From a virus: a stretch of 56,466 nt of DNA. The position numbers and the translations under genes are program-made. The DNA lies in the IMG/VR virus record IMGVR_UViG_3300027728_000001, positions 1 through 56,466 of that record, one strand, 5' to 3'. Position 1 is the first letter of the stretch; every line of letters begins with the position of its first letter. The notes beneath the pieces are model-generated. The model saw only the letters and a program-made list of their open reading frames with translations. It did not search any database and was not told where the DNA came from. Shown here one piece after another: positions 2,854 through 47,742 of this stretch.

Positions 2854-4824
2854 TCACTGTCCTTCGGGGGGAGGAGGTGGGCCTTCGGGCGGCGGTGGTG
2901 GAGGTGGTGGCACCATGTACCGCGTGACATCGACGTTCATAGCCTTGCCCCAGTCTTCCAAGAGCGCGTTGAACAGCTCTGGGCGACCGGCCTGGAGCAA
3001 GCCCTGACTGATCGGGGCCATAATCTGCATGGCCTGCGTGATGTTTTCGATGCGTGTCGAATTGTTTGGCTTACGCGCTGAGCCAGCTTCCACGCGGTAG
3101 CTGTACTCACGCACTACCGACTCTGGGTCTTCGCCCTGTACGTGCATCTGCCAAGCCTGTGCAGCCATCGGGCCAAGCAGCGGAGCAACGTCCTGTGGGT
3201 TGATGAGCCACCTCGCCAGGAGCGCTTCCTTGCGGGCGCAGAGCGACAGGGCGTCTTCCAATATATTTGCGTAATCGTCAGGCCTGACCGAAATCTGCTC
3301 AGCCTTCACGGTCGCTTCTGCAGCCGACCTAAACTGATTTCTGGTCATCCCGTAAATGAGTTCTGTCAATCCGACTCTGCGATCAAACAGATCCGTGACC
3401 TCGCTGATGATCTGGTACATGTCCGATGACACACCCGGCATAGTGAACACCGAGATCACATCGTTGACCGACCGGCCGATGGCTTCAGCAATCTCCACCA
3501 CCTTAAAGCCGCCTTCGTCCTTCTCTAGGATCTTGGCTTTGAGGTTTTCGTCAGCAGACTTCGCTACACCGATCAGCACCTGCGAGCTAGTCGCAATGCG
3601 GGTTGCCAAGAACGACATCGCCCAATTAATAAATCGCAGCTCTCCGATCCCCGGACGGATCAGCGAGATCGGCCAGCTATAGCCCGGCTTGCCATGCCAG
3701 GCGAGCGGAGTGAACGGCCAGCCGTTGGGTTCTGCCCAGAAGGGGATCGGCCACTGTGCTGCTAGGAACATCCCTTGCGAGACACCTGTCTCATCGACTT
3801 CTTCTTGGAGAAGGGCTTCGGGCATGTTGAGCGGGTAGTCAATCCCCTCTGCCACAGCGAGGTAGCAGTTGGGGCCGAAGGCGTCGAACTTGCCACGCAG
3901 CTCTTTGTCGGCATCTTTCAGCCGGTCGCCAAACCCGCTCTTGGAATAGACCTCCCAGTAGCACAGGAGATCGTTGCTCTTGCCCAGCTTCCGCTTGTAC
4001 TCCTGGCCTCGCTCACCCGCATCGGCACGGGATGCGTAGCTCTCCATGTGGCCCTGGAGCTGCTCACGGGATAGGCCAAACTTCGCAGCCACCTCATCGA
4101 CGGGTTGAATGCGCTTCCGTGCGGCCCAGCGAATGTCCTCATACTCATCTGCGTCCGGATCCCAGACGAGATTGTCGATGGTGTCATAGAAGCTCCCGGC
4201 CATCTTCACCGTAGCACCGGGTGGAGAATAAAGCTCATGCCACCAGACGCCAGCACCTTTGATGAACGCTTCTTCTACGACCTTGCGGCTGTGCTTCTTC
4301 AGATCCAACTCATTCGGCGTGTAGTTGAGATAATCCTCCAAGAGCTTGGAGACGAGCTTGCGGCGTTCCAGCATCATCTGCTGGTCTTGCAGGCCCTGCT
4401 GGTACATCTGCATCTGGGGGTCGGGCATCATCACCATCTGGCCGTCTGGGCCGATGATCGGCTGGCCATCTGGCCCCATGGCCGGCACGGGAGGCTGCGG
4501 CATAATCCCCAGCATCTCAGCCCCAATGATCGGGTACTCTTTCGGAGTCACCGTTCTAGCGGGGTTGCGATGGTGGATGACCGCTGTGAACAGCCGCACA
4601 GCCTCCCACACCCGGTTGACCTGCATGCGGAATGCCGGGGGGGACATTCCTTTGTTGTAGCCGCGTTCCCCGCGGGCATACCCATCCTGCCACATAAAGT
4701 CTGGGTCGCCGGCAAAGAAGTTCATCGCCTCATCGGCGTCTGCCTGGAACGGACGCTTGTGCGTCTGCGCTTGCTTAATGCACTCTAACCAGCGTTTGAC
4801 TATGGGGCGAAGCGGTTTTTCCAT
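2854..4824 (-). CDS. Portal protein
   Basis: This 656-aa protein has the usual length for a podovirus portal, the dodecameric ring at the capsid vertex that connects to the tail and to the packaging motor. It lies just after the large terminase and a small SH3-like gene. The N-terminal half is rich in Trp/Tyr/Arg (FMWQDGYARGERGYNKG). A Met/Gln/Pro-rich loop near residues 108-150 (PQPPVPAMGPDGQPIIGP) resembles insertions found in several portals. The C-terminus is a run of Pro and Glu (PPPPPPPPEGPPPP). SD AGGAG sits 6 nt before ATG at 4824. Assignment rests on length, composition and gene order, with no single diagnostic motif. Confidence 0.85.
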   Translation of the reverse strand: MEKPLRPIVKRWLECIKQAQTHKRPFQADADEAMNFFAGDPDFMWQDGYARGERGYNKGMSPPAFRMQVNRVWEAVRLFTAVIHHRNPARTVTPKEYPIIGAEMLGIMPQPPVPAMGPDGQPIIGPDGQMVMMPDPQMQMYQQGLQDQQMMLERRKLVSKLLEDYLNYTPNELDLKKHSRKVVEEAFIKGAGVWWHELYSPPGATVKMAGSFYDTIDNLVWDPDADEYEDIRWAARKRIQPVDEVAAKFGLSREQLQGHMESYASRADAGERGQEYKRKLGKSNDLLCYWEVYSKSGFGDRLKDADKELRGKFDAFGPNCYLAVAEGIDYPLNMPEALLQEEVDETGVSQGMFLAAQWPIPFWAEPNGWPFTPLAWHGKPGYSWPISLIRPGIGELRFINWAMSFLATRIATSSQVLIGVAKSADENLKAKILEKDEGGFKVVEIAEAIGRSVNDVISVFTMPGVSSDMYQIISEVTDLFDRRVGLTELIYGMTRNQFRSAAEATVKAEQISVRPDDYANILEDALSLCARKEALLARWLINPQDVAPLLGPMAAQAWQMHVQGEDPESVVREYSYRVEAGSARKPNNSTRIENITQAMQIMAPISQGLLQAGRPELFNALLEDWGKAMNVDVTRYMVPPPPPPPPEGPPPPPEGQ

Positions 4825-4850: not shown

Positions 4851-5171
4851 TTAGCGGGGTTTCCGGGCCTCAATCTCGGCTACCTTCTTTTCCAGCAGGG
4901 CGACCTTCTCGGCCAGGATGGCGTTTTTCTGGGGCTTGTACTCCCAGAATCCATACTCAGCCCAGGCTGGGAACTGCTCCACACCCGGATCGGTGGTGTG
5001 ATGCACGCTGGCTTTCTCAGTCCCGCCATAGCCCGGGGACACGGCCCACAGGGTCAGCGTCCGTGACGAAACCCTTGTCACCATCGCTGGCACGGCGTCC
5101 GCACCGGCATGTACCCGGAACAACACCCAGTCGCCCACTTCGGCTACCGGCATTACATAACTATCGCTCAT
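4851..5171 (-). CDS. Small phage protein with SH3-like N-terminus and coiled-coil C-terminus
   Basis: A 106-aa protein between large terminase and portal. Residues 8-60 form a beta-rich module (VGDWVLFRV, PAMVTRVSSRTLTLWAVSP) like small SH3 barrels. Residues 75-106 are a Lys/Glu coiled coil (AILAEKVALLEKKVAEIEARK). It starts 4 nt inside the terminase gene end, which points to translational coupling. Small proteins of this build often sit next to phage terminases. Their role is unknown. Confidence 0.7.
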   Translation of the reverse strand: MSDSYVMPVAEVGDWVLFRVHAGADAVPAMVTRVSSRTLTLWAVSPGYGGTEKASVHHTTDPGVEQFPAWAEYGFWEYKPQKNAILAEKVALLEKKVAEIEARKPR

Positions 5172-6841
5172 CGTCTGCTCCCCATAGGCCCAAGAATAAT
5201 GCAGGAGTCATCGGACTTCTGCTCTCTGCGGCGTTTATCCGCAAGATACTTAACCCACCAAGGATCTGGGCCATGCGTCTTTGGTGGGCTGTGATAATCT
5301 GGCTCATAGGCACAGAGGTATTCGACCGACTGAACGGCATGCACTTCGCCCCGTGTCTGCGGTTCGTCGGTGACATATACCTGGCCGTTGACGTTTGTGG
5401 TCTTCTTGCGGTAGCGGCGAATCTCCCGCATTAGATTAGGGCAGGAGCCCTCCAAGAACTTCAGCCCCACGCTCCCGTCGCCGCGGATGTGCAGCATCTG
5501 CCTTACTAGGGCAGTGCGGGCGCGGATGTCATCTGATCCGGGGATAAACCCATGCCCGCTGAGCTGGGCACGTATGCCTCTCTTCTTTAGCTCTTCGGAA
5601 TAAAGCTCATGGGGGAGACGACCGGAGCCCAAGTCCCGCAGCATGCCACCGTGCATGTCGATGATGAAGTTGTAGAAGTGCTGACCATCTGCCTTCTGAG
5701 CAAACTGTTCGCCAAAGATCAATGCGTTGGCTTGGCGGATATACAACTCATCATAGATCAGCAGGTACTTCTCATCGGGAGGGACAGCACCAAACACGCA
5801 CGCCAAGACGGTGTGCCCCGGGTCAATCGCTACGTACCGCGTCCAGTTCTGTGGTACTTGGCCAGCGGGTAGATCCTCTCTCCGCAGTACATGCACCGCA
5901 GGATTGAAGGTCGGATACATAAGCGTGGACTCTGTGGTGAACTCGCCCTCCGCTCGCATGCGAAGCTCGTCCACTCCCAAGGCAGACCACCGCTCAATGT
6001 TCTTCTGCTTTTCCTCTTGGTCGATGTGGGCGTTATCCAGAAACCGCAGGGTGAACTTCTTAATAATCGGGCATGGCTGTTCTTCCGCTTTCTCTGCACG
6101 TTCACACAACCCCAGCAACGCATCGTTTTTACTATGTGGCATAGCCGACCAAACGAACCGGCCTTTGCGGTCTGCGAGCCTAGCCTGCATCTCACCCACC
6201 CAACGCTCATTGTTAATATCCTCGTCAATATGTACCAAATCGGCCTGAAAACCTTGCGGAGGCTCACCTTCTGAGGAGAAACAATTAATAGTCCAGCCGT
6301 TCGTAAGCTCTGCCTTGTTGAGGTATCCGGCGTTCTTCAGCACCCAACTCATATCCTTAATCATCCGCGGAGGGATCAGCGGTGGGGCGGGCTTAGCTTT
6401 AGTCGGATCGTCTATGCCGGGGCGGAAGGCTCGCCACTGGCCCGTCTCCAGATCGCGGATGATTTTGAAGGCACCAGCACGGAAGAGCATCGGAACAACC
6501 ACTAGGCCAATGTGTGGCCAGTTACGCCCGATGATTACTAGGTTGCCGTTTTCTTTGGGATACTTTCCGTACGGGTCTTGTCCTGTGGCGGCGCGGGCGT
6601 CTTCGATGAAGCTTGCGGCCGACTTCCCTGAGCGATTTCCGCCGATGAGCAATCGCTCGCTGACCATGCAGCGATGGAACTCTTCCTGCTTCTCCATCGG
6701 GACATAGAGCTTCAGGGCTTCTAGCCGGCGATCCGCCAGCTCCACCTGCACCTCACGCAACTGCGAGATCGCATGCTGAGTGAGATGCGGAGCGGGAGCG
6801 TCAGGGATTGGCGGCGTTGGTCGCTTGGGATGCTTTCTCAT
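5168..6841 (-). CDS. terL: Terminase large subunit (packaging ATPase and nuclease)
   Basis: A 557-aa motor that pumps DNA into the prohead and cuts the concatemer. Walker A is GGNRSGKS at residues 67-74, a classic terminase form. The Walker B/catalytic acid region is VHIDED. The C-terminal RNase H-like nuclease shows the first metal-binding Asp in YVAIDPGHTV and another Asp in FIIDMHGG. ATG at 6841 overlaps the stop of the small subunit gene as ATGA with no SD of its own, so translation is probably coupled. Confidence 0.95.
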   Translation of the reverse strand: MRKHPKRPTPPIPDAPAPHLTQHAISQLREVQVELADRRLEALKLYVPMEKQEEFHRCMVSERLLIGGNRSGKSAASFIEDARAATGQDPYGKYPKENGNLVIIGRNWPHIGLVVVPMLFRAGAFKIIRDLETGQWRAFRPGIDDPTKAKPAPPLIPPRMIKDMSWVLKNAGYLNKAELTNGWTINCFSSEGEPPQGFQADLVHIDEDINNERWVGEMQARLADRKGRFVWSAMPHSKNDALLGLCERAEKAEEQPCPIIKKFTLRFLDNAHIDQEEKQKNIERWSALGVDELRMRAEGEFTTESTLMYPTFNPAVHVLRREDLPAGQVPQNWTRYVAIDPGHTVLACVFGAVPPDEKYLLIYDELYIRQANALIFGEQFAQKADGQHFYNFIIDMHGGMLRDLGSGRLPHELYSEELKKRGIRAQLSGHGFIPGSDDIRARTALVRQMLHIRGDGSVGLKFLEGSCPNLMREIRRYRKKTTNVNGQVYVTDEPQTRGEVHAVQSVEYLCAYEPDYHSPPKTHGPDPWWVKYLADKRRREQKSDDSCIILGPMGSRR

Positions 6842-10871: not shown

Positions 10872-11981
10872 TCAGGCGAGGTTAGAGAGTTTGAAAAAGT
10901 TGCGTGGCGACTTAAATTTCAGGTTGCCAAGCGTTGACACAACATAGCGATATTGCTGGGTGATTTCGTCGTAGAAAGGCCCTTCGCTCTGAAGGAGTTG
11001 ACCTTCCATGCAGAGCAGTTCCATGTTGCCGATGGCCAAGCCGTAGCCGGTGTTGGCGGGGACAGAATTTTCCCCCGAAATTTCCACCCCGTCCAGCTCA
11101 AATACATCAGTAAATCCATAAGAACGCAGGCCGTTAGTACGACTGACAATCACACGCTCCTTGGCGTCCAGCGTGTTGAGGAAGTCAATGAACAGGCGTC
11201 GATCCAGCAGCACCATGTCCACCTGGTCTTCCTTGCTGTCGTTCCGGCGAGTCTGGTGAATTGCTTCACGCACCGCCTTCACGCAGTTGGCCGACCACGT
11301 TGTCCCACCGAAGTAGGAGCTGGTGTAGTTGACCTGCACCGGCGTGAAGAAATCCATTTCTGGATCTGCATCGCCGTTCGGCCAGATGCCGCTCTTCTGC
11401 GAGCCGCCGTAGGCACCAAGCACAGTCGAAAGACCGGCGTAGGTGTCGCTGGGGTAGCCGAAGGGATCCAAGACATTCGCCGTCCGCTGAGCGCCAGTGG
11501 CAACATTGATGGTGCCGTTGTTGGCCATAAAGCTTTCGATCCCATGGAATCGCAGCTCATTGCCAGCAGCGTAGCCGTCGTTGATCCACTCCTTTGCAAG
11601 GTACTGCTCCATGCTCGTCAGAAGACGGCTGGACAGCTTGCCGGCGACGTTGATCAGAGCCTGTGCGCTCCGATTCTCCAACATCTCCTTTTTGTAAATT
11701 GCGTCAGTGACCTGTGCGCCCCGATAGTCTAACTCCAGATTTTTCCAGAGGTTCTGGCGGGCGAAGGTGCGAGGAGTCTCACCATTGTTGCCGCTCGGCG
11801 TGTGATTTCTGTACTGGATTTCCCAGTCGAAACCCCTGCCTGACATGTTGGTTCGCACCTGGCCGGAACCTTCCAGCGCGGCGAACACTTTATACTTACG
11901 AAGCGATGCAACCTCCTCCTCACGGAGATGGTTTACAATCGTCGTTGCAATTGACCTCGCCCAGTCAGTACTGCTGCTCAT
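10872..11981 (-). CDS. Major capsid protein
   Basis: A 369-aa protein of the right size and position (scaffold before, decoration after, terminator closing the operon). It has an N-terminal helix (RSIATTIVNHLREEEVASLRK), a middle rich in Tyr/Gly/Asn (IWPNGDADPEMDFFTPVQVNY) and a C-terminal beta region (VFELDGVEISGENSV, YRYVVSTLGNLKFKSPRNFF). These are consistent with the HK97-type fold, but no single motif proves it. ATG overlaps the scaffold stop as TGATG, tying the two syntheses together. Confidence 0.85.
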   Translation of the reverse strand: MSSSTDWARSIATTIVNHLREEEVASLRKYKVFAALEGSGQVRTNMSGRGFDWEIQYRNHTPSGNNGETPRTFARQNLWKNLELDYRGAQVTDAIYKKEMLENRSAQALINVAGKLSSRLLTSMEQYLAKEWINDGYAAGNELRFHGIESFMANNGTINVATGAQRTANVLDPFGYPSDTYAGLSTVLGAYGGSQKSGIWPNGDADPEMDFFTPVQVNYTSSYFGGTTWSANCVKAVREAIHQTRRNDSKEDQVDMVLLDRRLFIDFLNTLDAKERVIVSRTNGLRSYGFTDVFELDGVEISGENSVPANTGYGLAIGNMELLCMEGQLLQSEGPFYDEITQQYRYVVSTLGNLKFKSPRNFFKLSNLA

Positions 11982-13096: not shown

Positions 13097-14014
13097 TTAC
13101 TGGTCTTCACCGTAGGGGGATGCGGCGCCGGCGGCTATGGCTCCCGGTACGGCATACTTGCGCAGGATGCGGATCTGGTCTTCGGTGCCTGGGAACATTA
13201 CGTAGTTGCGTGTGCCGTCTCCAACCTTCCGCGAGCCTGAGTCTAGATACTGAATGCCGGGAATACCTTCTTGCAGCAGTGCCTCTGCCGCGCTGCGTGA
13301 CTTGTACTTATTCAATCCCAGCGCTGGGTGATTCGTTGGCCGAAACGCATCCGCAATGGCGTGGTAGGCGGATTCCCCCTCCAACTCTCTGGTAAGCCAC
13401 TCCATCATTCGATCTGCGGCCTGCCGGTCTGGGGCCACCGAAGCGATTCGCTCCATCGCACTCTTAAGATGCGGCTGTTCGCTGATGGGGCTGTCCCAAT
13501 CCAGCAGCGATCTTTCCGGGTGTGCAATCTCAACTTCGTAGGTATGACCCGGGCGGCGTGGTGGTCGGCCTAGAAATCGATCAACCTCGTCAATGCTGGG
13601 CGACGTTCGGTGAACCCTCGGGCGCTCGCCGTAAATCGGATTGCCAGCCTTGTCTACACTAATCACTTCAACCGCCCAGTCCCAAGGCGAGTCCTTTGGC
13701 TGATGAAAGTTCAGAACCTTGTCTCTCCCTCCGTATCCATTTATGACGTTACCGGGCGCAAAATACGCTGGCAGATCAGCGTCGGGAGCCAATCTGGCCG
13801 GCGAATAGCTGCCAGCCAGCCTAGTGCGGTAACCACTCGCAATGGACTCGTTTCCCGCAAAGTACAACCCATGCCCATATGCCTGCGCCCCTTCGCCCGT
13901 GCCAATCTTGCTGGCATCGAACTTGTCGAAGTCATACGGGCTACCGTGATAGGCGCGGATGACTTGGCGTACCGAGTCCCCGGCATCGTCCACATACCTA
14001 ATAGGGTTTGGCAT
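13097..14014 (-). CDS. ADP-ribosyltransferase-like protein (ART-PolyVal type)
   Basis: A 305-aa protein. Residues 20-60 contain AYHGSPYDFDKFDASKIGTG followed by EGAQAYGHGLYFAGN, the signature start of the ART domain found in phage polyvalent proteins. The Tyr-His pair and the GHGLYFA block form the NAD-binding part. The C-terminal block GIPGIQYLDSGSRK then GDGTRNYVMF is also typical. Family knowledge suggests transfer of ADP-ribose to a host target, with the protein carried in the virion and injected. Here it is a stand-alone gene inside the head operon. It shares the start MPNPIR with the structural protein at 43258-44337. The target is unknown. Confidence 0.8.
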   Translation of the reverse strand: MPNPIRYVDDAGDSVRQVIRAYHGSPYDFDKFDASKIGTGEGAQAYGHGLYFAGNESIASGYRTRLAGSYSPARLAPDADLPAYFAPGNVINGYGGRDKVLNFHQPKDSPWDWAVEVISVDKAGNPIYGERPRVHRTSPSIDEVDRFLGRPPRRPGHTYEVEIAHPERSLLDWDSPISEQPHLKSAMERIASVAPDRQAADRMMEWLTRELEGESAYHAIADAFRPTNHPALGLNKYKSRSAAEALLQEGIPGIQYLDSGSRKVGDGTRNYVMFPGTEDQIRILRKYAVPGAIAAGAASPYGEDQ

Positions 14015-22839: not shown

Positions 22840-22925
22840 TGTTTGCAATGAGTGAGACGATGGACTTTCTGATTGGCGGCGGCACGGTGCTGCTGATGTT
22901 GTGGTGGACTTCGATGAGGGACTGA
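22839..22925 (+). CDS. Second membrane micro-protein (28 aa)
   Basis: Contains DFLIGGGTVLLMLWWTS, a short membrane span, in a 28-aa product directly before the recombinase gene and coupled to the preceding micro-protein by TGATG. Its function is unknown. Confidence 0.4.
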   Translation: MFAMSETMDFLIGGGTVLLMLWWTSMRD

Positions 22926-22927
22926 CC

Positions 22928-23701
22928 ATGTTGTACGGCTATGTCCGCGTATCCACTGACAAGCAAGAGAACAGCCGGGATGCACAGGAGATAAAGCTGC
23001 GGGCCTATGCTGCCCAGGTAGACATGGAGTTCGGTGGCGTCTACGTGGACGAGGATCAGTCGGCCAACAAGATCCCGCTGAAGCACCGCAAGCAGGGCCG
23101 GATCCTCTGGGATGCCCTGCGACCAGGCGATGTCGTCTGCTTCACCAAGATCGACCGGGTGTTCCGATCCATGGCCGATGCGGCCTCCACCCTAGCGACA
23201 TGGAAGTCGCTAGGCGTGGGGGTTCGCTTCCTAGACATGGGCATCGATGTCAACACGCCGGCCGGGGAGTTGTTCTTTAACCAGCTTGCGGCCTTTGCCC
23301 AGTACGAAAGCCAGATGATCGGGCAGCGGGTACGGGAGATCGCCGCTCATCTCACCGCTGCCGGCCGACCCGTGGGTAGCGCTCGCCCGTTCGGCTGGAC
23401 AAAGAGCGACGGCCAGTACATTCCCTGCCCACAGGAGCGGGAGATCGGTGACCTCGCCCATTCAATGCGACAGGGCGGGGCTACTTACCCGGCAATCGCC
23501 TTGCACCTTTGCCGCAAGGAGCTTCGCAAACCGAAGAACAAGAAGGGTGTCCGTGGATACTATTGCGTGACCGACACCCGCTGCCTGTGTCGCGCGGCTG
23601 CAGCCGGATACCCAAGGATTCCGCCAAGGTGCGAGACAGGTGACTGGACTGGCGCCCTGCGGAACGCAGAGATATCTGATGCGTCTGAGCCAGTGACCTG
23701 A
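22928..23701 (+). CDS. Small serine recombinase (resolvase/invertase family)
   Basis: A 257-aa protein. The resolvase catalytic N-terminus is clear: GYVRVSTDKQ with R7 and nucleophile S9, then DQSANKIPLKHRKQGRILWD, CFTKIDRVFRSM and the helix region FFNQLAAFAQYESQMIGQRV. The C-terminal domain is short and Cys-containing (YYCVTDTRCLCRAAAAGYP), unlike a long large-serine-integrase arm. It could invert or resolve phage DNA, or control a fibre switch, but no inverted recombination sites were found. Its last 221 nt overlap the sigma gene in antisense. Confidence 0.9.
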   Translation: MLYGYVRVSTDKQENSRDAQEIKLRAYAAQVDMEFGGVYVDEDQSANKIPLKHRKQGRILWDALRPGDVVCFTKIDRVFRSMADAASTLATWKSLGVGVRFLDMGIDVNTPAGELFFNQLAAFAQYESQMIGQRVREIAAHLTAAGRPVGSARPFGWTKSDGQYIPCPQEREIGDLAHSMRQGGATYPAIALHLCRKELRKPKNKKGVRGYYCVTDTRCLCRAAAAGYPRIPPRCETGDWTGALRNAEISDASEPVT

Positions 23702-24116
23702 GCGTCTGGCCACCGACGAACCTGTCAGTGGCAATGGCCTGTGATTCTACGGGGAGATCAGCAATGGCTAGCCGTAGGTGATCCATGTGGTCGTAGTCTG
23801 GCATCAGCTCTTCTGCTTCTGCGAGCGTGATGCGGATGTCCCCTGGCTGGCGGTTGATCTTTTTGATCTGCTTGTACATGGCGTTCAAACAGGCGCGTGC
23901 GAAGTATGCCTTGGGGTAGGGGAGCCGCTTGGGATCGTAGGTCTTGGCCGCTTTCACCAGGGCCAGGAACCCCTCGCCGCGGAGGTCATCGACCAGCACA
24001 CCACGCTGCCAGTGCGGCCGGTTCTGCAGGAAGTACTTGGCAAGCACATCAGCCAGGCTGGCGTACTCAACTACGAGGGCCTGTCGCTTGGCCGAGAGCT
24101 TCAATCTTTTGGTCAT
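23481..24116 (-). CDS. Sigma-70-family RNA polymerase sigma factor
   Basis: A 211-aa protein. Region 2 is VDDLRGEGFLALVKAAKTYD then AYFARACLNAMYKQIKK, binding core polymerase and the -10 element. Region 4 is LPVESQAIATDRFVGGQTLR then SLAQTHQISLRSAGRQ, a helix-turn-helix for the -35. There is no region 1.1 or 3, so it is ECF/SigF-sized. It probably redirects host polymerase to late promoters. It is the last gene of the long minus operon. Region 4 is encoded antisense to the recombinase C-terminus, and the last 40 residues have no sigma-like features. Confidence 0.85.
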   Translation of the reverse strand: MTKRLKLSAKRQALVVEYASLADVLAKYFLQNRPHWQRGVLVDDLRGEGFLALVKAAKTYDPKRLPYPKAYFARACLNAMYKQIKKINRQPGDIRITLAEAEELMPDYDHMDHLRLAIADLPVESQAIATDRFVGGQTLRSLAQTHQISLRSAGRQSSHLSRTLAESLGIRLQPRDTGSGCRSRNSIHGHPSCSSVCEAPCGKGARRLPGK

Positions 24117-24297
24117 GTTGGTTCAGTCGGGACTCATGTTCTTCTATGGTTCGACGCAGCTCATCCAGCATGCGCGGCAGACTCTCAACGCTATGGGCTA
24201 TGACTGCGACCTTGGCATGCAGGGAGAAAGCCCACGGCACAACTGCCGCAGCCACCGATATGACCAGCACCCATAGCTCAGTCTCTGGACTCATCAT
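24067..24297 (-). CDS. One-TM coiled-coil protein (possible lysis accessory, XhlA- or spanin-like)
   Basis: A 76-aa protein with an N-terminal membrane span (LWVLVISVAAAVVPWAFSL) and a coiled coil (ESLPRMLDELRRTIEEHESR). Similar architecture occurs in XhlA-type and spanin-type lysis proteins, but no signature is present. It overlaps sigma by 50 nt and the gene before it by 20 nt. Confidence 0.5.
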   Translation of the reverse strand: MMSPETELWVLVISVAAAVVPWAFSLHAKVAVIAHSVESLPRMLDELRRTIEEHESRLNQHDQKIEALGQATGPRS

Positions 24298-24523
24298 CGC
24301 CTCTCAATAATGACAACAGCAGTAGGCCGGCGTACGGATGGAGCTGCCCATCCTCCACATGCGCTTTGATCCTTTGCTGGACGCGGTAGCTTTCGCCGTC
24401 CGGATAGCGATAGATGTGCGTGTGTACACCACAGGTCAGAGCGATCTCAGTGCGAGTTCGGCCTCCTCCTGTAGTAGATCCATGCTTGCCGGTAGGTCGC
24501 TGAAAATCCATCGGGAAAGCCAT
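24278..24523 (-). CDS. Unknown small protein (81 aa)
   Basis: Basic Gly/Arg-rich start, a His/Tyr-rich middle (CGVHTHIYRYPDGESYRVQQ) and a Leu-rich C-terminus (LHPYAGLLLLSLLRG). The start ATG at 24523 has no good SD and overlaps the gene before it by 88 nt, so the true start may be further in. Not recognised. Confidence 0.5.
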   Translation of the reverse strand: MAFPMDFQRPTGKHGSTTGGGRTRTEIALTCGVHTHIYRYPDGESYRVQQRIKAHVEDGQLHPYAGLLLLSLLRGDDESRD

Positions 24524-24744
24524 GCGGTGATAAGGTTGATGATGATGGGCAGGAGGATCAGCAGCAGCACAGATCCATACTCAGGGTTGCGTTGTCGAAA
24601 GCGTGCGCGGATGTCTCGCTTCCAAAGAGGGCGGTTCGATTGCAGCGTAGCTATTGCGATCAGCGATACCTCTTTGCTGTGCTTCGACAGCCTGGCTGAT
24701 CCACTCTCTTCGGCACATCGGTCGGCTATCGCTTCGGCAAGCAT
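24436..24744 (-). CDS. Small membrane protein, holin-like (102 aa)
   Basis: ATG at 24744 has AAGGAG 9 nt upstream. A positively charged region (RPLWKRDIRARFRQRNPEYG) precedes a long hydrophobic helix (SVLLLILLPIIINLITAWLS) with an aromatic end (RWIF). One membrane span with basic flanks, between two peptidase genes and a coiled-coil membrane protein, fits a holin, but sequence alone cannot show pore formation. Confidence 0.5.
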   Translation of the reverse strand: MLAEAIADRCAEESGSARLSKHSKEVSLIAIATLQSNRPLWKRDIRARFRQRNPEYGSVLLLILLPIIINLITAWLSRWIFSDLPASMDLLQEEAELALRSL

Positions 24745-24998
24745 GTCTTGCAGTCTCCTTTGATCACCACCGGGGGATGCACTAGCGCCGGGCTGCGCTT
24801 GCACACGCAAGTCTTAGGGCAGGGGCATTCAGTCACATGCCCATCACCATGGATCACCTTGCCGTTAGTGCAATTCCCACAGCACTTACCCACTTCGTCC
24901 GGTGCTTTGTAGGTGGTCACCACATACGCTGCCTCCACCGCAATGCGTTCGGCATAGTTCGGTGTACTAAACATCAGTGCGATGATAATGTTAATCAT
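24726..24998 (-). CDS. Secreted Cys-rich small protein (90 aa)
   Basis: The short N-terminal hydrophobic segment (MINIIIALMFSTPNYAE) could be a signal. It is followed by nine Cys in CCGNC, CPCPKTCVC and KGDCKTC. It overlaps the peptidase gene stop. Function unknown. An envelope-targeted disulfide-rich protein or o-spanin-like partner is speculative. Confidence 0.5.
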   Translation of the reverse strand: MINIIIALMFSTPNYAERIAVEAAYVVTTYKAPDEVGKCCGNCTNGKVIHGDGHVTECPCPKTCVCKRSPALVHPPVVIKGDCKTCLPKR

Positions 24999-25941
24999 GC
25001 TGGAGTAGTCCTATGGCACCGTAGTCAGGCAGCTTCTGCGGGGGGAACCCATCGACGGCACCGTATGCGTAACAATCGCCGCCGCGCACGCAGACTTCCC
25101 AGTCTTCGGCTTTTGTAACAATCATCCCCGGCACCCACGGCGGAAGATCTGTCGGCCATTCTTGTGGCGATTGGTTCCATTTTCCCCAAGAATTTTGGAC
25201 GAAGAAAACATCGAATGGCCAGAACTTGCGTGTGCAATCCATCCCGACCGTGGCCATGGCGTGCGACCATCCGCCGGCCGTGCGCGGGTGGATGTGATCT
25301 TTGTTGGGGTGCTGTGACCAAGAGGCAAACTGCCCAGATGCTATTGCGTAGCCGTTAAACAAAGCGTCAACAGCATCGCTCACCTTGGTCAACTGTCGGA
25401 TGATTCCAACCTTTTGGTTTTGGCACAGCTTCCTGACTTCTTCTGGCACGCCGCCGCCACCCCACTTAGAACCAATGCTGCTGTTGTATTTTGTAAGATC
25501 AACAGGGTCGTATTTCTTTCGGAGCAGGTAGCCTGTTGCATTCACAAACCTGGCCGCGAGGGCTGGCGACATGCCGTCTCCCGAATGGCCTCTCGCCCCA
25601 TAGGTAGGCTCAGTGGCGCTTCGGACAACAAAACTTTCCGGCCGGTTTTCCACGCAGATTTGTGTTGCGCGGGTGGTATCAATCGCATTGCGCGCGCAGT
25701 GAGAAGTGCAGTCGCCCGTCGTCTGCACTTCCGTATACGAAAGCGGATCCAGCTTCTGTGCGTAGGCCCACAGCATTGCCCGCTGCCCTTCGCCCGTGTT
25801 CGTTATGTTCTTTTCCCGATACACTGGTTGATTCTGCGACTCTGCAAAAAGAACGCGCTCTCGCGGGCTGTCGATGTAGCCCTGCAGGCCAGCATCGTAC
25901 GCCGCCAATGGCTGGAACATGTTGTCGTTGTTATCAGCCAC
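24991..25941 (-). CDS. Papain-like cysteine peptidase (C1-like)
   Basis: A 316-aa protein from GTG at 25941, preferred over the upstream TTG because AGGAG lies 7 nt before it. Catalytic pattern: Q73-TTGD-C78-TSHC (nucleophile Cys), H227 in GGWSHAMATVG, N250 in FFVQNSWGKWN. This triad and the NSWG block define the papain fold. The N-terminus (1-40) has no signal or long propeptide. Such peptidases cleave protein, not peptidoglycan. It is embedded in a cassette with membrane and secreted small proteins and a subtilase, so envelope or virion action is inferred. Cleavage of a host or phage protein inside the cell is the alternative. Confidence 0.88.
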   Translation of the reverse strand: MADNNDNMFQPLAAYDAGLQGYIDSPRERVLFAESQNQPVYREKNITNTGEGQRAMLWAYAQKLDPLSYTEVQTTGDCTSHCARNAIDTTRATQICVENRPESFVVRSATEPTYGARGHSGDGMSPALAARFVNATGYLLRKKYDPVDLTKYNSSIGSKWGGGGVPEEVRKLCQNQKVGIIRQLTKVSDAVDALFNGYAIASGQFASWSQHPNKDHIHPRTAGGWSHAMATVGMDCTRKFWPFDVFFVQNSWGKWNQSPQEWPTDLPPWVPGMIVTKAEDWEVCVRGGDCYAYGAVDGFPPQKLPDYGAIGLLQHD

Positions 25942-26482
25942 AGAGTGTCTCCTGCCCCGTGGCGTGGCAGTGGTCAATGTTTCGGGCGCGGGCGGTTGGG
26001 AATGACGACCCGCATATGTCGCATACTGGTACGGCGCACCTCTCTCGCACTTCTTCTAGTGTCATCGCATAGATTTGAGCGCGGTTGCGGATGCTTGTGC
26101 AGTCCCTACATTCCTTTCGGACGCCCGCCAATCGTTTAGTTGCCCGGGGGAATTCCGATGCTGGCTTTTCCACGCCGCAGTCTAAACACACTTGCGAACT
26201 AACCGACACTTCGTAATGCACCGCAGCCTTGCGGGCGCTGGTGCAAAGTTTGCACTCGCTTTGCAGTCCGCTACTCTTGTCCTTGGCTCTGTTGAAATCA
26301 CTTGCCGACTTTCGTTGCTCGCATTTACTGCACGTTTTCTCAGTCACGTTAACGTAAATGTTCTTGGCAGCAGACTTGTAATTGCGACATCTTTTGCAAG
26401 ATGGTTGGTAGCCATTGCGGCACGGGCTGTATTCAGTCAGTGGCTTTGTGATGCCGCAGACAGTGCAAGGCTTCTCACTCAC
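25934..26482 (-). CDS. Multi-zinc-ribbon protein with a truncated endonuclease VII-like end
   Basis: A 182-aa protein with three CxxC...CxxC ribbons (KPCTVCGIT/CKRCRN, KTCSKCEQ/CKLCTS, QVCLDCGV/CRDCTS), the repeated N-terminal modules of phage endonuclease VII/HNH proteins. It ends with VCDICG and NIDHCHATG, the start of the endonuclease VII core. The conserved RGLLCxxCNxxxG end is missing: it stops after QETLCG, 8 bp inside the peptidase start. It may therefore lack nuclease activity, acting only in DNA binding, or be a decaying gene. Confidence 0.7.
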   Translation of the reverse strand: MSEKPCTVCGITKPLTEYSPCRNGYQPSCKRCRNYKSAAKNIYVNVTEKTCSKCEQRKSASDFNRAKDKSSGLQSECKLCTSARKAAVHYEVSVSSQVCLDCGVEKPASEFPRATKRLAGVRKECRDCTSIRNRAQIYAMTLEEVRERCAVPVCDICGSSFPTARARNIDHCHATGQETLCG

Positions 26483-26867
26483 TTTGTTCTGCGACCTCTC
26501 TGCATCCGGTCACCACCTTGTCCACCACACCCTTAAGGGCAACGTCATCCAGCGGTACGTGGTCGGCCAAGACCTTCTCCACCGCTGTATCTAATCCGGC
26601 ATAGCGGCCCTTCATCTGCGCCGCTGCCAACTTCAGTGTGTTGCTATGCAGCGTTCGCCACATCGACAGCGTGGTGATGAGCGTGCCGTCGTCCTCTGCC
26701 GTCTTGTCTGCCAGTGCCGTGTAGATGCGGGACAGCGTAGCCTTATCGCTTCGGCTTGCGTTTGCCATTGCGGCGGCGACCGGGCCTCCCTGGCGTGGGG
26801 CTGATGCCGGGAGGAATGAGAATACTGCCAACGCCAAGGCCAGTATCACCGGGATGTGCTTCGTCAT
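26475..26867 (-). CDS. Exported protein of unknown function (130 aa)
   Basis: A good signal peptide (MTKHIPVILALALAVFSFLPASA) is followed by an alpha-helical Ala-rich domain (SRIYTALADKTAEDDGTLIT, HSNTLKLAAAQMKGRYAGLD). Overlaps both neighbours by a few bases. In the peptidase cassette. Export to the envelope during infection fits a lysis or host-envelope role. Confidence 0.6.
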   Translation of the reverse strand: MTKHIPVILALALAVFSFLPASAPRQGGPVAAAMANASRSDKATLSRIYTALADKTAEDDGTLITTLSMWRTLHSNTLKLAAAQMKGRYAGLDTAVEKVLADHVPLDDVALKGVVDKVVTGCREVAEQSE

Positions 26868-27091
26868 TTACTCACCTGTAACATTGCCTGGAGCAGGGCA
26901 TTGCATGCACTGACAATCACCTTGTCCGTGTGGGCCTCGCGGACAGCGACGATGCTTTCGATCTGCCGCATCACACTTGGCGTTGCTTCGGGCTTCGGAG
27001 TGCTAGGCAGGCGGATAGCATGGAGTGGGACATATGTCAGCAGCACAGCCACCACCACAGCCACCAACGCTAGAATTTGAACGTAGCTCAC
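26864..27091 (-). CDS. Small membrane protein (75 aa)
   Basis: GTG at 27091 overlaps the subtilase stop. An N-terminal span (VQILALVAVVVAVLLTYVPL) is followed by a short exposed helical region (SVMRQIESIVAVREAHTDKV). Could be an anchor for cassette partners or a holin-type peptide. Unassigned. Confidence 0.55.
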   Translation of the reverse strand: MSYVQILALVAVVVAVLLTYVPLHAIRLPSTPKPEATPSVMRQIESIVAVREAHTDKVIVSACNALLQAMLQVSK

Positions 27092-28026
27092 AGTACTTTT
27101 GCTCCCGGGATAAAGATCGTTACGCCACCAATGTTTGCTTGGAGCGTGTAGTTCATCAGCTTCTGCGGATCGACCAGGCCCCAGCCGTACACATGGTCAT
27201 GCCCTTGCTCGCCAACGTCCTTGCAGGTCTGGGCCAGGGCTCGCATCACATCGGCGTGCGTCACCTTGCGATCCAGCTTGTGTTCCGCCGAGACATACAG
27301 AGCCAGCACACCTGCGACAAAGGGTGCAGCCATGCTCGTCCCGCTCACAGTGGCGTAGCCATTGGCCAGCCAGCAACTGGTGATGTCCTGCCCTGGTGCT
27401 GCGACAGCGACCTGTGCGCCACGGGAACTGAACTCACAGGCCAGCCCCTTGTTGTCCACTGCACCCACAGCGATTGTCTCTGGGAACGCAGCCGGATAGT
27501 TCACGGCCTCGCCGTCATTGCCGGCGGCGCAGACCACAATCACCCCGGCGGCAGCGGCTGCACGGATCGCCATGTGGACAGCTTCGTTCGCACGGGACGA
27601 ACCCAAGGACATGCAGATGATCTGCACCTTGGCTTCCGTGGCGTAGCGGATTGCCTGCTCCACCCACTCGTTGCTTCCCATTCCGCTGTGGCCCAGCACT
27701 TTGAGGGAAAGGATTCTGGTGCCGGGGGCAATGCCTTTAGCCAAGCCACTGCGGGCGGCGATGATGCCGCTTACATGGGTGCCATGGCCGAGCGTGTCAT
27801 GGGCATCGGAGTCGGATGTGAAGTTGCGGTAGTCCACCACCGCGGCGTCCAGTGCCTTGTGCTGGGCAACGCCACTGTCGATCACCGCCACTGTGACTCC
27901 ATCCCCCTGCGACCGCTGCCACAGGGCCGGGATCCCGTAACTGCACACGCCCCAGTCAACGCCATTCTGGAGGGCGCGGGGCGCGTCTAGGTTTACCCGG
28001 TAGGGCGGGAGGTGGACGAGGTTCAC
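27088..28026 (-). CDS. Subtilisin-like serine protease (S8 family)
   Basis: A 312-aa protein with the complete catalytic machinery: D50 in VAVIDSGVA, H81 in GHGTHVSG, oxyanion N170 in CAAGNDGE and S231 in GTSMAAPFVAGV. It has no signal peptide and no long propeptide, unlike secreted subtilases, so it may be made active in the cell, be packaged or exit by a holin. GTG at 28026 overlaps the preceding stop as GTGTGA. A subtilase is unusual in phages. Prohead maturation, host takeover and envelope digestion are competing roles. Confidence 0.93.
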   Translation of the reverse strand: MNLVHLPPYRVNLDAPRALQNGVDWGVCSYGIPALWQRSQGDGVTVAVIDSGVAQHKALDAAVVDYRNFTSDSDAHDTLGHGTHVSGIIAARSGLAKGIAPGTRILSLKVLGHSGMGSNEWVEQAIRYATEAKVQIICMSLGSSRANEAVHMAIRAAAAAGVIVVCAAGNDGEAVNYPAAFPETIAVGAVDNKGLACEFSSRGAQVAVAAPGQDITSCWLANGYATVSGTSMAAPFVAGVLALYVSAEHKLDRKVTHADVMRALAQTCKDVGEQGHDHVYGWGLVDPQKLMNYTLQANIGGVTIFIPGAKVL

Positions 28027-28370
28027 ACGGCCTTTCCGGCAGCGAGCGCCTTAAGAATCGCAATCACAAGGGGGAGGATCACCGTGGTCAGCAGCTCCCA
28101 GTCAACGCCGAGAATCCCAAACTCAGCACCCGCCTGGAACAGCAGGGCTTCGTAGTCTTCTTGGTCTTCCAGATCACCAAACCCGCCAGACAATGCCTGC
28201 ACCGACACGGCCTGGGATTCCAGCACCGGGATCAGCAGACGAGCAATCGAATCCACCAGCAGCCACTGCTCAATGAACGGCAGGTCTTTCCGCCAGCCCT
28301 TGCCGATCTCAATGATCTTCAGCAGGACGGTCTGGTTGGCGAGCAGGAACTTAATGACGCGGAGGTTCAT
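28023..28370 (-). CDS. Unknown protein with C-terminal membrane span (115 aa)
   Basis: N-terminal helices (RVIKFLLANQTVLLKIIEIG, FIEQWLLVDSIARLLIPVLE), an acidic middle (GGFGDLEDQEDYEALLF) and a C-terminal hydrophobic tail (LLTTVILPLVIAILKALAAG). ATGA overlap with the upstream gene and GTGA overlap with the subtilase. Possible membrane anchor or holin/antiholin-type protein. No family recognised. Confidence 0.5.
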   Translation of the reverse strand: MNLRVIKFLLANQTVLLKIIEIGKGWRKDLPFIEQWLLVDSIARLLIPVLESQAVSVQALSGGFGDLEDQEDYEALLFQAGAEFGILGVDWELLTTVILPLVIAILKALAAGKAV

Positions 28371-28726
28371 AGATCGTCGTCCTCAAAATCCAAGATGGCC
28401 ATGGCCACAACGGCGTGGCCTGCGATGTCGGCAAGCGTCTCTCTGATAGCTATTGTCCGCTCTGGGCCGATCATCCCCCGGAGCCGCCGGCACTTCTCCC
28501 CAATGCGGGCCAACTGGTAGACCCACGGCTCAATACCCTCCTCCGATACGCCTAGCGCGTTCTCCAGGGGGCTCTCTGTGCAGCCGTAGTATCCCCGCTT
28601 CCGGTTCAGCAGCCGCCACAGCTCATCACAGATGGCCCTGTAGGGGTCTTCACCAGGGTCGCCCTCGGCATGCCTTAACGATCCGTCCAAACTCTGCCCA
28701 AAAACTGGGGTGGTGCCATGTATCAT
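28367..28726 (-). CDS. MazG-like phage protein
   Basis: A 119-aa all-helical protein. The segment DELWRLLNRKRGYYGCTESP followed by ALGVSEEGIEPWVYQLARIG and IRETLADIAGHAVVAMAI has the RKxxDYG...E...A.R..DK..R..........D...DiagYavia layout of small phage MazG-like (nucleotide pyrophosphatase-related) proteins. It might hydrolyse nucleotides or affect alarmone signalling. ATG at 28726 is chosen for GGAGG upstream. It overlaps the 28650 gene end. Confidence 0.6.
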   Translation of the reverse strand: MIHGTTPVFGQSLDGSLRHAEGDPGEDPYRAICDELWRLLNRKRGYYGCTESPLENALGVSEEGIEPWVYQLARIGEKCRRLRGMIGPERTIAIRETLADIAGHAVVAMAILDFEDDDL

Positions 28727-29000
28727 CGTCGGTGTCCTCCTCATCACACAGGAAAGCGGTTCGGGCATGTGCCCACTCCTCCGCAAAAGTCTCAATCATT
28801 GCGTCTCGGCCTAGGCTGTCTCGCAGGATGATCACCCCGCGGTCAGCGTCGTCATTGAGGGTGAAGCACCCCAGCATTTCTGGCATTGTCTTGGCTGGGC
28901 GCACTGCTACCCGCACTGGGAAGGTCAGAGGGAACCTGCGTTCCGCCCAGTACTTCAGCTTGCGGGCCAGCTTGCGCCTCCAGCAGGAATTTAGGGGCAT
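28650..29000 (-). CDS. Degenerate metallopeptidase-like phage protein
   Basis: A 116-aa protein. Residues about 70-105 read METFAEEWAHAR-like then HHPSFWAEFGRIVKAC, matching a small phage family with the HEWAHA zinc site and a downstream H..FW..YG.L. Here the first zinc His is Glu (EEWAH), so hydrolytic activity is doubtful. GGAG is 7 nt before ATG at 29000. Overlaps the previous gene by 149 nt in another frame. Confidence 0.55.
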   Translation of the reverse strand: MPLNSCWRRKLARKLKYWAERRFPLTFPVRVAVRPAKTMPEMLGCFTLNDDADRGVIILRDSLGRDAMIETFAEEWAHARTAFLCDEEDTDDDTWHHPSFWAEFGRIVKACRGRPW

Positions 29001-46542: not shown

Positions 46543-47742
46543 CTACTGGTTATTGCTCTTCCAGAAGCGTTTGAGTGCCGCTAAAGCCACGGCGGCGAAA
46601 ACTAAGGCATATCCCGCGGGGGAAAAGAACCAGAGATCCCGCTTCTCAGACTCCTCTTTGAGCCAGCCAACGATCTCCCGGCACCTCCGAATACACTGCC
46701 CAGAGCCCCATTCATCCATTTGCGCAGCCCGTGCATTACAGGAGCAGGTCGGGGAGGCGACGATTCCACCCAGCCTTAGGATGTCTTTTAGGGCCGCTCC
46801 TGGCCCAGGTAACAGTTTTGGTGGTTCCTCGCCTTCTCCATAGACGATTGGCTCACCGATGGCGGCGGGCGTGAAGCCTGGGCACGGGTCAGTGAGGAGC
46901 GAAATAGTCCCTGTGTAAAACCCTTCGTTGTCGGGGGCGCAATCATCGTTCGCCCGCAGCTCCAATAATCCGGCACCCGGCTGGCCTGTGTAGCTGGAAC
47001 CTACGCTGAACATAACGCCATTTACGCGGCCGATGAGGCGCATGTGCTTAACCCCCGGCAGAGGGTTGCAGCCGCCGTTGGCTGGATAGTCATCAGTGCC
47101 ATCTGGCCCAATGTTGTCGATAGTCGGGAGTCGCCATTGAACAGTTCCCGTGGCATTGATAGTGACGGTGGCCCCGGCAGGGATTGTTAGCCCGGTGCTT
47201 TGCCAGCTGGGGTTGGCCACATCGACGCTGAAGTCAACGGAGGCTTGGGTCGGCAGGCACCCAGATGCCCCGCAGCACTTAGTGTTGTCCCCACAGCAAT
47301 TGAACGCCGTACCGTTCCCAGCGCAGAACGTAGTGCCAGCGGCGCACTTATTTACGCATGCCTCGTTTACACATTTCTGGTGCAATGGGCAGCACGTGCC
47401 CGCGCAACAGCTCCTTGGGGACGGGCACTCAATCCTGCAAGCACCTCCGACGCATTGCTCGCAGTAGTACCACCGACACCCGTTGCTCTGGGCGCCAAAC
47501 ACCGACAGCTCCGTGCAGCTACAACTGAAGCCAAACCTAAACGTGCTGGCGTAGGGCTTATTGCGGCATCCGCACTGGTTCTCCTGAGTGCATCGCTCCT
47601 TGCCCGTGTCGTCTGTACAGGCGCCAATCGAACAATCTCCAGCCGCTACAGCCCCTCCTCCATGGACACATTCACTGCGAGTGATGTCATTACACGCATT
47701 GCCGTTGCAGCACGGTAGCACTTGGCAGCACGTACAGGTCAT
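46543..47742 (-). CDS. Cys-rich protein with LecA-like lectin domain and C-terminal membrane anchor (399 aa)
   Basis: Residues 1-165 contain about 40 Cys in repeated patterns (CTCCQVLPCCNG, PSPRSCCAGTCCPLHQ, CCGDNTKCCGASGC) of the cystine-knot or EGF-like kind. Residues about 175-290 match a PA-IL/LecA-type sugar-binding domain: WQSTGLTIPAGATVTINATG, DNIGPDGTDDYP, LELRANDDCAPDNEGFY, with the expected Asp/Asn calcium-site residues. Residues about 375-395 (AGYALVFAAVALAALKRFW) anchor it in a membrane. It is the only protein here that looks host-envelope-like. Sugar binding to the host or display on the host surface are options. Confidence 0.7.
   Translation of the reverse strand: MTCTCCQVLPCCNGNACNDITRSECVHGGGAVAAGDCSIGACTDDTGKERCTQENQCGCRNKPYASTFRFGFSCSCTELSVFGAQSNGCRWYYCEQCVGGACRIECPSPRSCCAGTCCPLHQKCVNEACVNKCAAGTTFCAGNGTAFNCCGDNTKCCGASGCLPTQASVDFSVDVANPSWQSTGLTIPAGATVTINATGTVQWRLPTIDNIGPDGTDDYPANGGCNPLPGVKHMRLIGRVNGVMFSVGSSYTGQPGAGLLELRANDDCAPDNEGFYTGTISLLTDPCPGFTPAAIGEPIVYGEGEEPPKLLPGPGAALKDILRLGGIVASPTCSCNARAAQMDEWGSGQCIRRCREIVGWLKEESEKRDLWFFSPAGYALVFAAVALAALKRFWKSNNQ

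Follow-up and report, generated by a model that had tools for sequence, protein, structure and literature searches.

A papain-like peptidase cassette as a candidate lysis module of planctomycete phages

Endolysins define how tailed phages exit from cells, and a phage genome with no recognisable endolysin raises the question of what opens the host instead. The IMG/VR record IMGVR_UViG_3300027728_000001 (here the window, meaning the whole stretch of 56,466 bases that was analysed) raises it at positions 23481-28370, where a densely packed run of genes on the minus strand encodes an intracellular-type subtilase, a papain-like peptidase, five small membrane or exported proteins, an HNH insert and a sigma factor. 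The first-pass annotation had proposed that the two peptidases act together in a new, proteolytic kind of lysis or envelope module and had guessed at a planctomycete host. Our analysis leads us to hold, with moderate confidence, that the block is a planctomycete-phage lysis cassette in which the papain-like peptidase is the lytic agent and replaces the endolysin. A lysis or envelope role is still the best supported reading of the block; the pairing of the two peptidases as one unit was dropped, as the subtilase is missing from complete phages that carry the cassette.

Papain-like peptidase and its recurrent partners

The proposed lytic enzyme (24991-25941, minus strand, GTG start) is a papain-like, C1-type cysteine peptidase with C78, H227 and N250 as its active-site residues. 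On its own, the window protein had no match in direct Pfam, PHROG or PDB sequence searches, and deep alignments were needed. Across an alignment of 66 homologues (A3), in which the other sequences are 36-85% identical to the window member, C78 and H227 never vary, and at least 90% keep N250. PF00112 was touched by 26 of the 66 at E values up to 10 (best 5.6e-5), though not by the window member. The AlphaFold model built from A3 has a predicted local distance difference test score (pLDDT) of 90.2 and supersedes an earlier model from a 12-sequence alignment (pLDDT 57). When it was compared with the PDB by Foldseek, all of the 50 matches listed were C1 peptidases, with xylellain the best (E 3.8e-9) and procathepsins (procathepsin B) and Cwp84 following; the viral models matched included proteins of uncultured phages and giant viruses named 'Peptidase C1'. 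Alignment and predicted model together indicate a C1-type enzyme with a predicted papain fold, and the residues to which the first-pass annotation had pointed are borne out. The window peptidase has no signal sequence, whereas hydropathy shows a membrane segment at the N-terminus of seven members from planctomycete genomes.

Two peculiarities of the gene were seen among relatives. At L016:11491-13653 a full intein (CFVAGTLV...GYAVHN) splits the papain gene immediately before the catalytic Cys; inteins are often inserted at active-site positions of proteins in which the active site matters. Some large cassette phages also have a second papain-like copy, as at 183082-184224 of G050, where it is split inside a larger open frame near tail genes, and near position 5008 of L126 (G042).

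With the alignment as query, the peptidase was found to be encoded in 434 viral contigs, and tblastn with the window member and two divergent members found no match in 50,697 GenBank phage records. Because the enzyme is present in more than 430 environmental contigs and, by tblastn, in no GenBank phage record, a search by known families would label the cassette phages endolysin-free. The gene order of the whole block is kept in 13 distinct IMG/VR relatives at roughly 30-90% identity. In distant phages with genomes of up to ~160 kb and wholly different neighbours (PhoH, ribonucleotide reductase and ClpP-like genes), a reduced set persists, consisting of small membrane proteins, the partner encoded at 26475 in the window, the peptidase itself, a Cys-rich protein that bears a GDG motif and one further small membrane protein. 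Conservation was counted over 30 papain clusters (70% identity), using testable clusters only: the 26475 partner is no more than 1.5 kb upstream of the peptidase in 13 of 17, a small membrane protein is no more than 2 kb downstream of it in 16 of 19, and a Cys protein is downstream in 12 of 19. The same partner adjoins the peptidase in planctomycete chromosomes. Since these partners recur across clusters and the subtilase is often absent, the core of the cassette is the peptidase together with the exported and membrane proteins that accompany it.

In the window itself, short start-stop overlaps join most adjacent genes, so that 23481-28370 can be taken as a single coupled operon, as had been suggested. 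Six window genes encode a strong hydrophobic segment, and five of the six are in the block (hypergeometric P 2e-4 over 69 called genes, a rough value that depends on gene calls and a hydropathy cut-off of our choosing).

Planctomycete relatives and the search for wall-cutting enzymes

The closest bacterial match of the peptidase is on a 55-kb contig binned as Pirellulaceae, which may itself be phage, and a member of the family is present in 13 of 392 Planctomycetota genomes, several of them on multi-megabase contigs. DUF1559, a family abundant in Planctomycetota, was found in 7 of 15 divergent cassette phages; one of ~160 kb (G039, L138:1-15526) carries it together with PSCyt1-like and DUF1501-like genes, the latter two read by eye. 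On these sequence data a planctomycete host for the cassette phages is strongly supported, in keeping with the initial guess. The genome search covered Planctomycetota as its sole phylum, contigs of metagenome-assembled genomes from three other groups also match the peptidase, and a host range reaching beyond planctomycetes is possible.

Some of the bacterial copies are in prophages. L334 is a prophage in a planctomycete chromosome that by eye has genes for the terminase large subunit (TerL), portal, protease-capsid, cassette and tail. Plasmid pPLIM01 of Planctopirus limnophila DSM 3776 (37,010 bp) carries the cassette with a full set of phage structural genes, in the order transmembrane protein, papain-like enzyme with an N-terminal membrane anchor, small exported protein, HNH, TerL, portal, ClpP-type head protease and capsid. 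In L336, also from a planctomycete chromosome, the partner and the peptidase are upstream of TerL and portal, with three small genes between. Temperate phages commonly have their lysis genes beside the terminase. Because the pPLIM01 member, PLIM_RS21800 (WP_013112484.1), annotated as hypothetical, is on a phage-like plasmid of a cultured type strain, direct testing is possible. Two of the planctomycete prophages have an exported thioredoxin-like protein (CPYC) in the papain operon (L336:8718-9275 and L320:2939-3460), which perhaps keeps the papain Cys reduced outside the cytoplasm. At L340:9555-12352, a bare cassette (GlsB-like protein, membrane proteins, partner and papain) is found in a planctomycete chromosome with no obvious adjoining phage genes, perhaps as a domesticated or decayed copy.

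The first-pass annotation had found no known muralytic enzyme in the genome, and profile searches agree. Pfam, run on all 69 called window proteins, gave no muralytic family among the best 25 of 36 families (the others were weaker than E 0.0016), nor did it give one in the whole proteomes of the complete cassette phage G029 and of pPLIM01. The SLT profile had no match in 43 cassette records, and Amidase_2, Phage_lysozyme, M23 and CHAP had none in 44 each, the window included; many of these records are fragmentary, near duplicates occur among them, the window and its own clade account for 29 of the 44, and novel muralytic folds would escape such a search. Controls for these five profiles worked in bacterial genomes, and Amidase_2 matched 2 of 6 cultured phages in the same search. 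It had no match in G056, a phage with a subtilase and no papain gene, too distantly related for use as a control. For M15 (M15_4), no match in the 44 records was above the cut-off, and one in G043 was below it (E 6.3e-4, 16 bits). GH19 had no match, but its controls were equally silent and it was not counted. When sister phages with a canonical endolysin in the cassette's place were sought through ribonucleotide reductase neighbours, the one large papain-free record found (G049) was incomplete and ended inside tail genes. A possible endolysin in the window at 13097-14014, close to the capsid genes, was rejected: its PHROG 'endolysin' match (E 4e-4) falls on an ADP-ribosyltransferase region, itself a weak ART-PolyVal match, and is a side effect of polyvalent proteins.

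Subtilase and other genes of the block

The subtilase (27088-28026, minus strand) is complete and of intracellular type (PF00082, E 2.7e-54). D50, H81, S231 and N170 do not vary among 12 relatives (alignment A2), the S8 catalytic residues are present and no signal peptide was found in it. Its closest PDB matches are intracellular subtilisins, 7y6m and then 2x8j and other intracellular proteases. All 12 relatives share the N-terminal sequence VHLPPYRV, in which LPPY is residues 6-9; the inhibitory LIPY motif of a Planococcus enzyme is at the corresponding N-terminal position (PMC6220982), and LPPY deviates from the published pattern [LVI][IFLV]P[YFH] at its second residue (Pro). Because LPPY sits where LIPY lies, the subtilase may be synthesised in a self-inhibited, zymogen form. 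Of the 30 papain clusters, only 8 had a subtilase in the loci fetched, and G029 and pPLIM01 have none; G039 has a different intracellular-type subtilase with N-terminal LLPY. Judged by these sequences, the subtilase is a lineage-specific addition outside the cassette core. In most cultured phages examined such subtilases are away from lysis genes, and in the Moorella record and several Bacillus phage records their neighbours are metabolic or unknown genes. One in Brevibacillus phage Osiris is near a putative endo-beta-N-acetylglucosaminidase.

Every gene that the first-pass annotation named exists where it had been placed. The most conserved partner of the peptidase (26475-26867) is an exported or anchored helical protein with a clear N-terminal hydrophobic segment, either signal or anchor. 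The other protein that had been called exported (24726-24998) has a weak hydrophobic segment only; it is short, Cys-rich and possibly exported, with the aligned motif CCGxC..HGDGH..CPCP..CxCK. Three small membrane proteins had been listed and all three stand. The first, at 26864-27091, has 75 residues and an N-terminal membrane segment (hydropathy 2.54), with 70 open reading frame matches among the loci. The one at 24436-24744 has a C-terminal hydrophobic segment (hydropathy 2.51) and a likely start, inferred from relatives, at the ATG at 24744. The third, at 24067-24297, is a holin candidate of 76 residues with an N-terminal membrane segment and a coiled coil, matching PHROG 1296 'holin' weakly (E 3e-5) and Pfam DUF7365 slightly below the family cut-off (E 1.4e-5). 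A fourth, at 28023-28370, had been overlooked; it has 115 residues and a C-terminal hydrophobic segment (hydropathy 2.37), is a conserved neighbour of the subtilase and is also a holin candidate. All of these genes are on the minus strand, as are those that follow.

Besides that fourth protein, our analysis adds an HNH gene and two upstream genes to the block. The HNH gene (25934-26482), which matches PHROG endonuclease VII families, lies between the 26475 partner and the peptidase and appears to be mobile, being variably present among the 13 relatives and missing in several. At the upstream edge, 28650-29000 encodes a conserved small protein with an invariant EExAHxR..HHxxFW and no Pfam or PHROG match; from its sequence this is possibly a metal site, in a minimal metal-binding or peptidase-like protein. 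Another conserved protein (28367-28795) lies between it and 28023 in conserved order. The small protein at 24278-24523 is likewise conserved in order within the module and has no Pfam or PHROG match. At the operon end, as had been noted, is a sigma-70 family factor (23481-24116; PF04542, E 5.5e-6), in the same place in relatives; a serine recombinase gene on the plus strand (22901-23701) overlaps it by ~220 bases, and relatives retain the overlap.

Elsewhere, PHROG matches identify the portal (2854-4824), the terminase large subunit (5168-6841) and the major head protein (10872-11981). The exact 91-bp direct repeat at the two ends, together with the status of the record as a virus, marks the window as a phage genome that is complete and maps as a circle. 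Among the tail genes, 46543-47742 encodes a Cys-rich protein of 399 residues with a C-terminal membrane anchor and no known family.

The proposed lysis role and its alternatives

From what the sequence offers (families, catalytic residues, a predicted fold, cassette conservation and prophages) we infer a route of late action. As it has no export signal, the window peptidase would accumulate in the cytoplasm until at least one of the small membrane proteins (24067, 28023, 26864 and 24436) let it through the inner membrane. Beyond that membrane it would act together with the partner 26475, which is exported, and the Cys-rich 24726 protein, cutting either peptides in the wall or proteins on which the cohesion of the envelope depends. 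The enzyme of several planctomycete prophages carries an N-terminal membrane anchor instead, which recalls the two exit routes of endolysins, known in holin-dependent and signal-anchor forms. In the window lineage, the subtilase, likely a self-inhibited zymogen in view of LPPY, may break down proteins of the host or of the cassette at a late stage of infection.

A lysis or envelope role is the best supported because the cassette is common to unrelated phages together with small membrane proteins (one with a weak holin match), is terminase-adjacent in two prophages, has soluble and anchored forms of the enzyme and occurs in genomes with no recognisable endolysin. Several points weigh against it. 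The one holin match among the membrane proteins of the block is weak, no spanin pair was identified, and in the window the block follows the replication genes and is not beside the packaging genes. Missing known families are not the same as a missing muralytic enzyme. Finally, C1 peptidases usually cut proteins and planctomycete peptidoglycan is lysozyme-sensitive, and the substrate must therefore be assumed.

This last point also bears on the suggestion that proteases open a protein-rich wall. Planctomycetes have peptidoglycan, which lysozyme dissolves (PMC4432640), and the older picture of their wall, as cited in PMC2754498, was a disulfide-bonded protein sacculus; papain-fold enzymes of other families cut wall peptides (PMC10318531). 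Because the peptidoglycan is lysozyme-sensitive, the enzyme may cut wall peptides and not a protein wall. A purely proteolytic lysis, in which the papain-like enzyme, passed by small membrane proteins, digests envelope proteins with no peptidoglycan-cutting endolysin involved, we regard as doubtful. We find it unlikely that the peptidase opens the outer layers only (outer-membrane anchors or surface protein), as a spanin replacement, with an unrecognised enzyme elsewhere cutting the peptidoglycan. Both the peptidoglycan and the disulfide-linked sacculus of the earlier work suit this explanation, as do the many window proteins with no known family, but the hidden enzyme must then have escaped in the window, G029 and pPLIM01 alike, and no other gene was found common to these backbones.

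Roles apart from lysis fare less well. An intracellular type of subtilase, probably self-inhibited, whose counterparts in Moorella and several Bacillus phages are found among metabolic or unknown genes, and a block that comes after the replication genes would both fit proteases used for takeover of the cell and recycling of host protein, the membrane neighbours then serving in superinfection exclusion or in some other interaction with the host. However, some cassette phages lack the subtilase, and the papain-like enzyme is accompanied by exported and membrane partners, has anchored forms and adjoins packaging genes in prophages; we give this explanation little credence. It is very improbable that the papain-like enzyme serves in head maturation or, carried in the virion, in entry: phages do use proteases in head maturation, and G050 has papain-like pieces in a large protein frame near tail genes, but in the window the portal and capsid genes are a long way from the peptidase, whose neighbours are small membrane proteins. 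Head maturation is further disfavoured because pPLIM01 has its own, separate ClpP-type head protease in the standard place.

Should lysis by the papain-like peptidase be confirmed, it would be a route of phage exit not previously described, and it would supply lytic enzymes of a new class and a tool for work on a phylum whose envelope is unusual; the literature searched contained no description of a lysis system of a planctomycete phage. Compared with known systems, the subtilase shares with intracellular subtilisins and the enzymes of Moorella phage MTATph1 and Bacillus SP-15 the S8 residues and the lack of a signal peptide, and it has an N-terminal LPPY that resembles LIPY; it differs from them in the Pro at the second motif position and in its operon with membrane proteins. 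The papain-like enzyme resembles xylellain, the C1A papain and cathepsins and Cwp84 in predicted fold, in the Cys-His-Asn set and in an NSWG motif. Identity to them is ~15%, the window member has no whole-protein Pfam match, and its family has a distinct active-site motif, GDCxSH, with a Gln 5 residues before the Cys; in papain the Gln is 6 residues before it. The cassette as a whole is like canonical holin-endolysin(-spanin) cassettes in being a compact operon of small membrane proteins and one lytic enzyme, in its place beside the terminase in two prophage relatives and in having soluble and membrane-anchored enzyme forms. It differs from these in that the proposed enzyme is a C1-type peptidase and not a muramidase, amidase, transglycosylase or CHAP/NlpC enzyme, and in having no clear spanin pair. 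PeiW and PeiP belong to a different cysteine-peptidase family from the papain-like enzyme. These pseudomurein endoisopeptidases of methanogen phages (PMC4592898) are likewise phage-encoded cysteine peptidases that lyse the host by cutting wall peptides, although the wall on which they act is archaeal.

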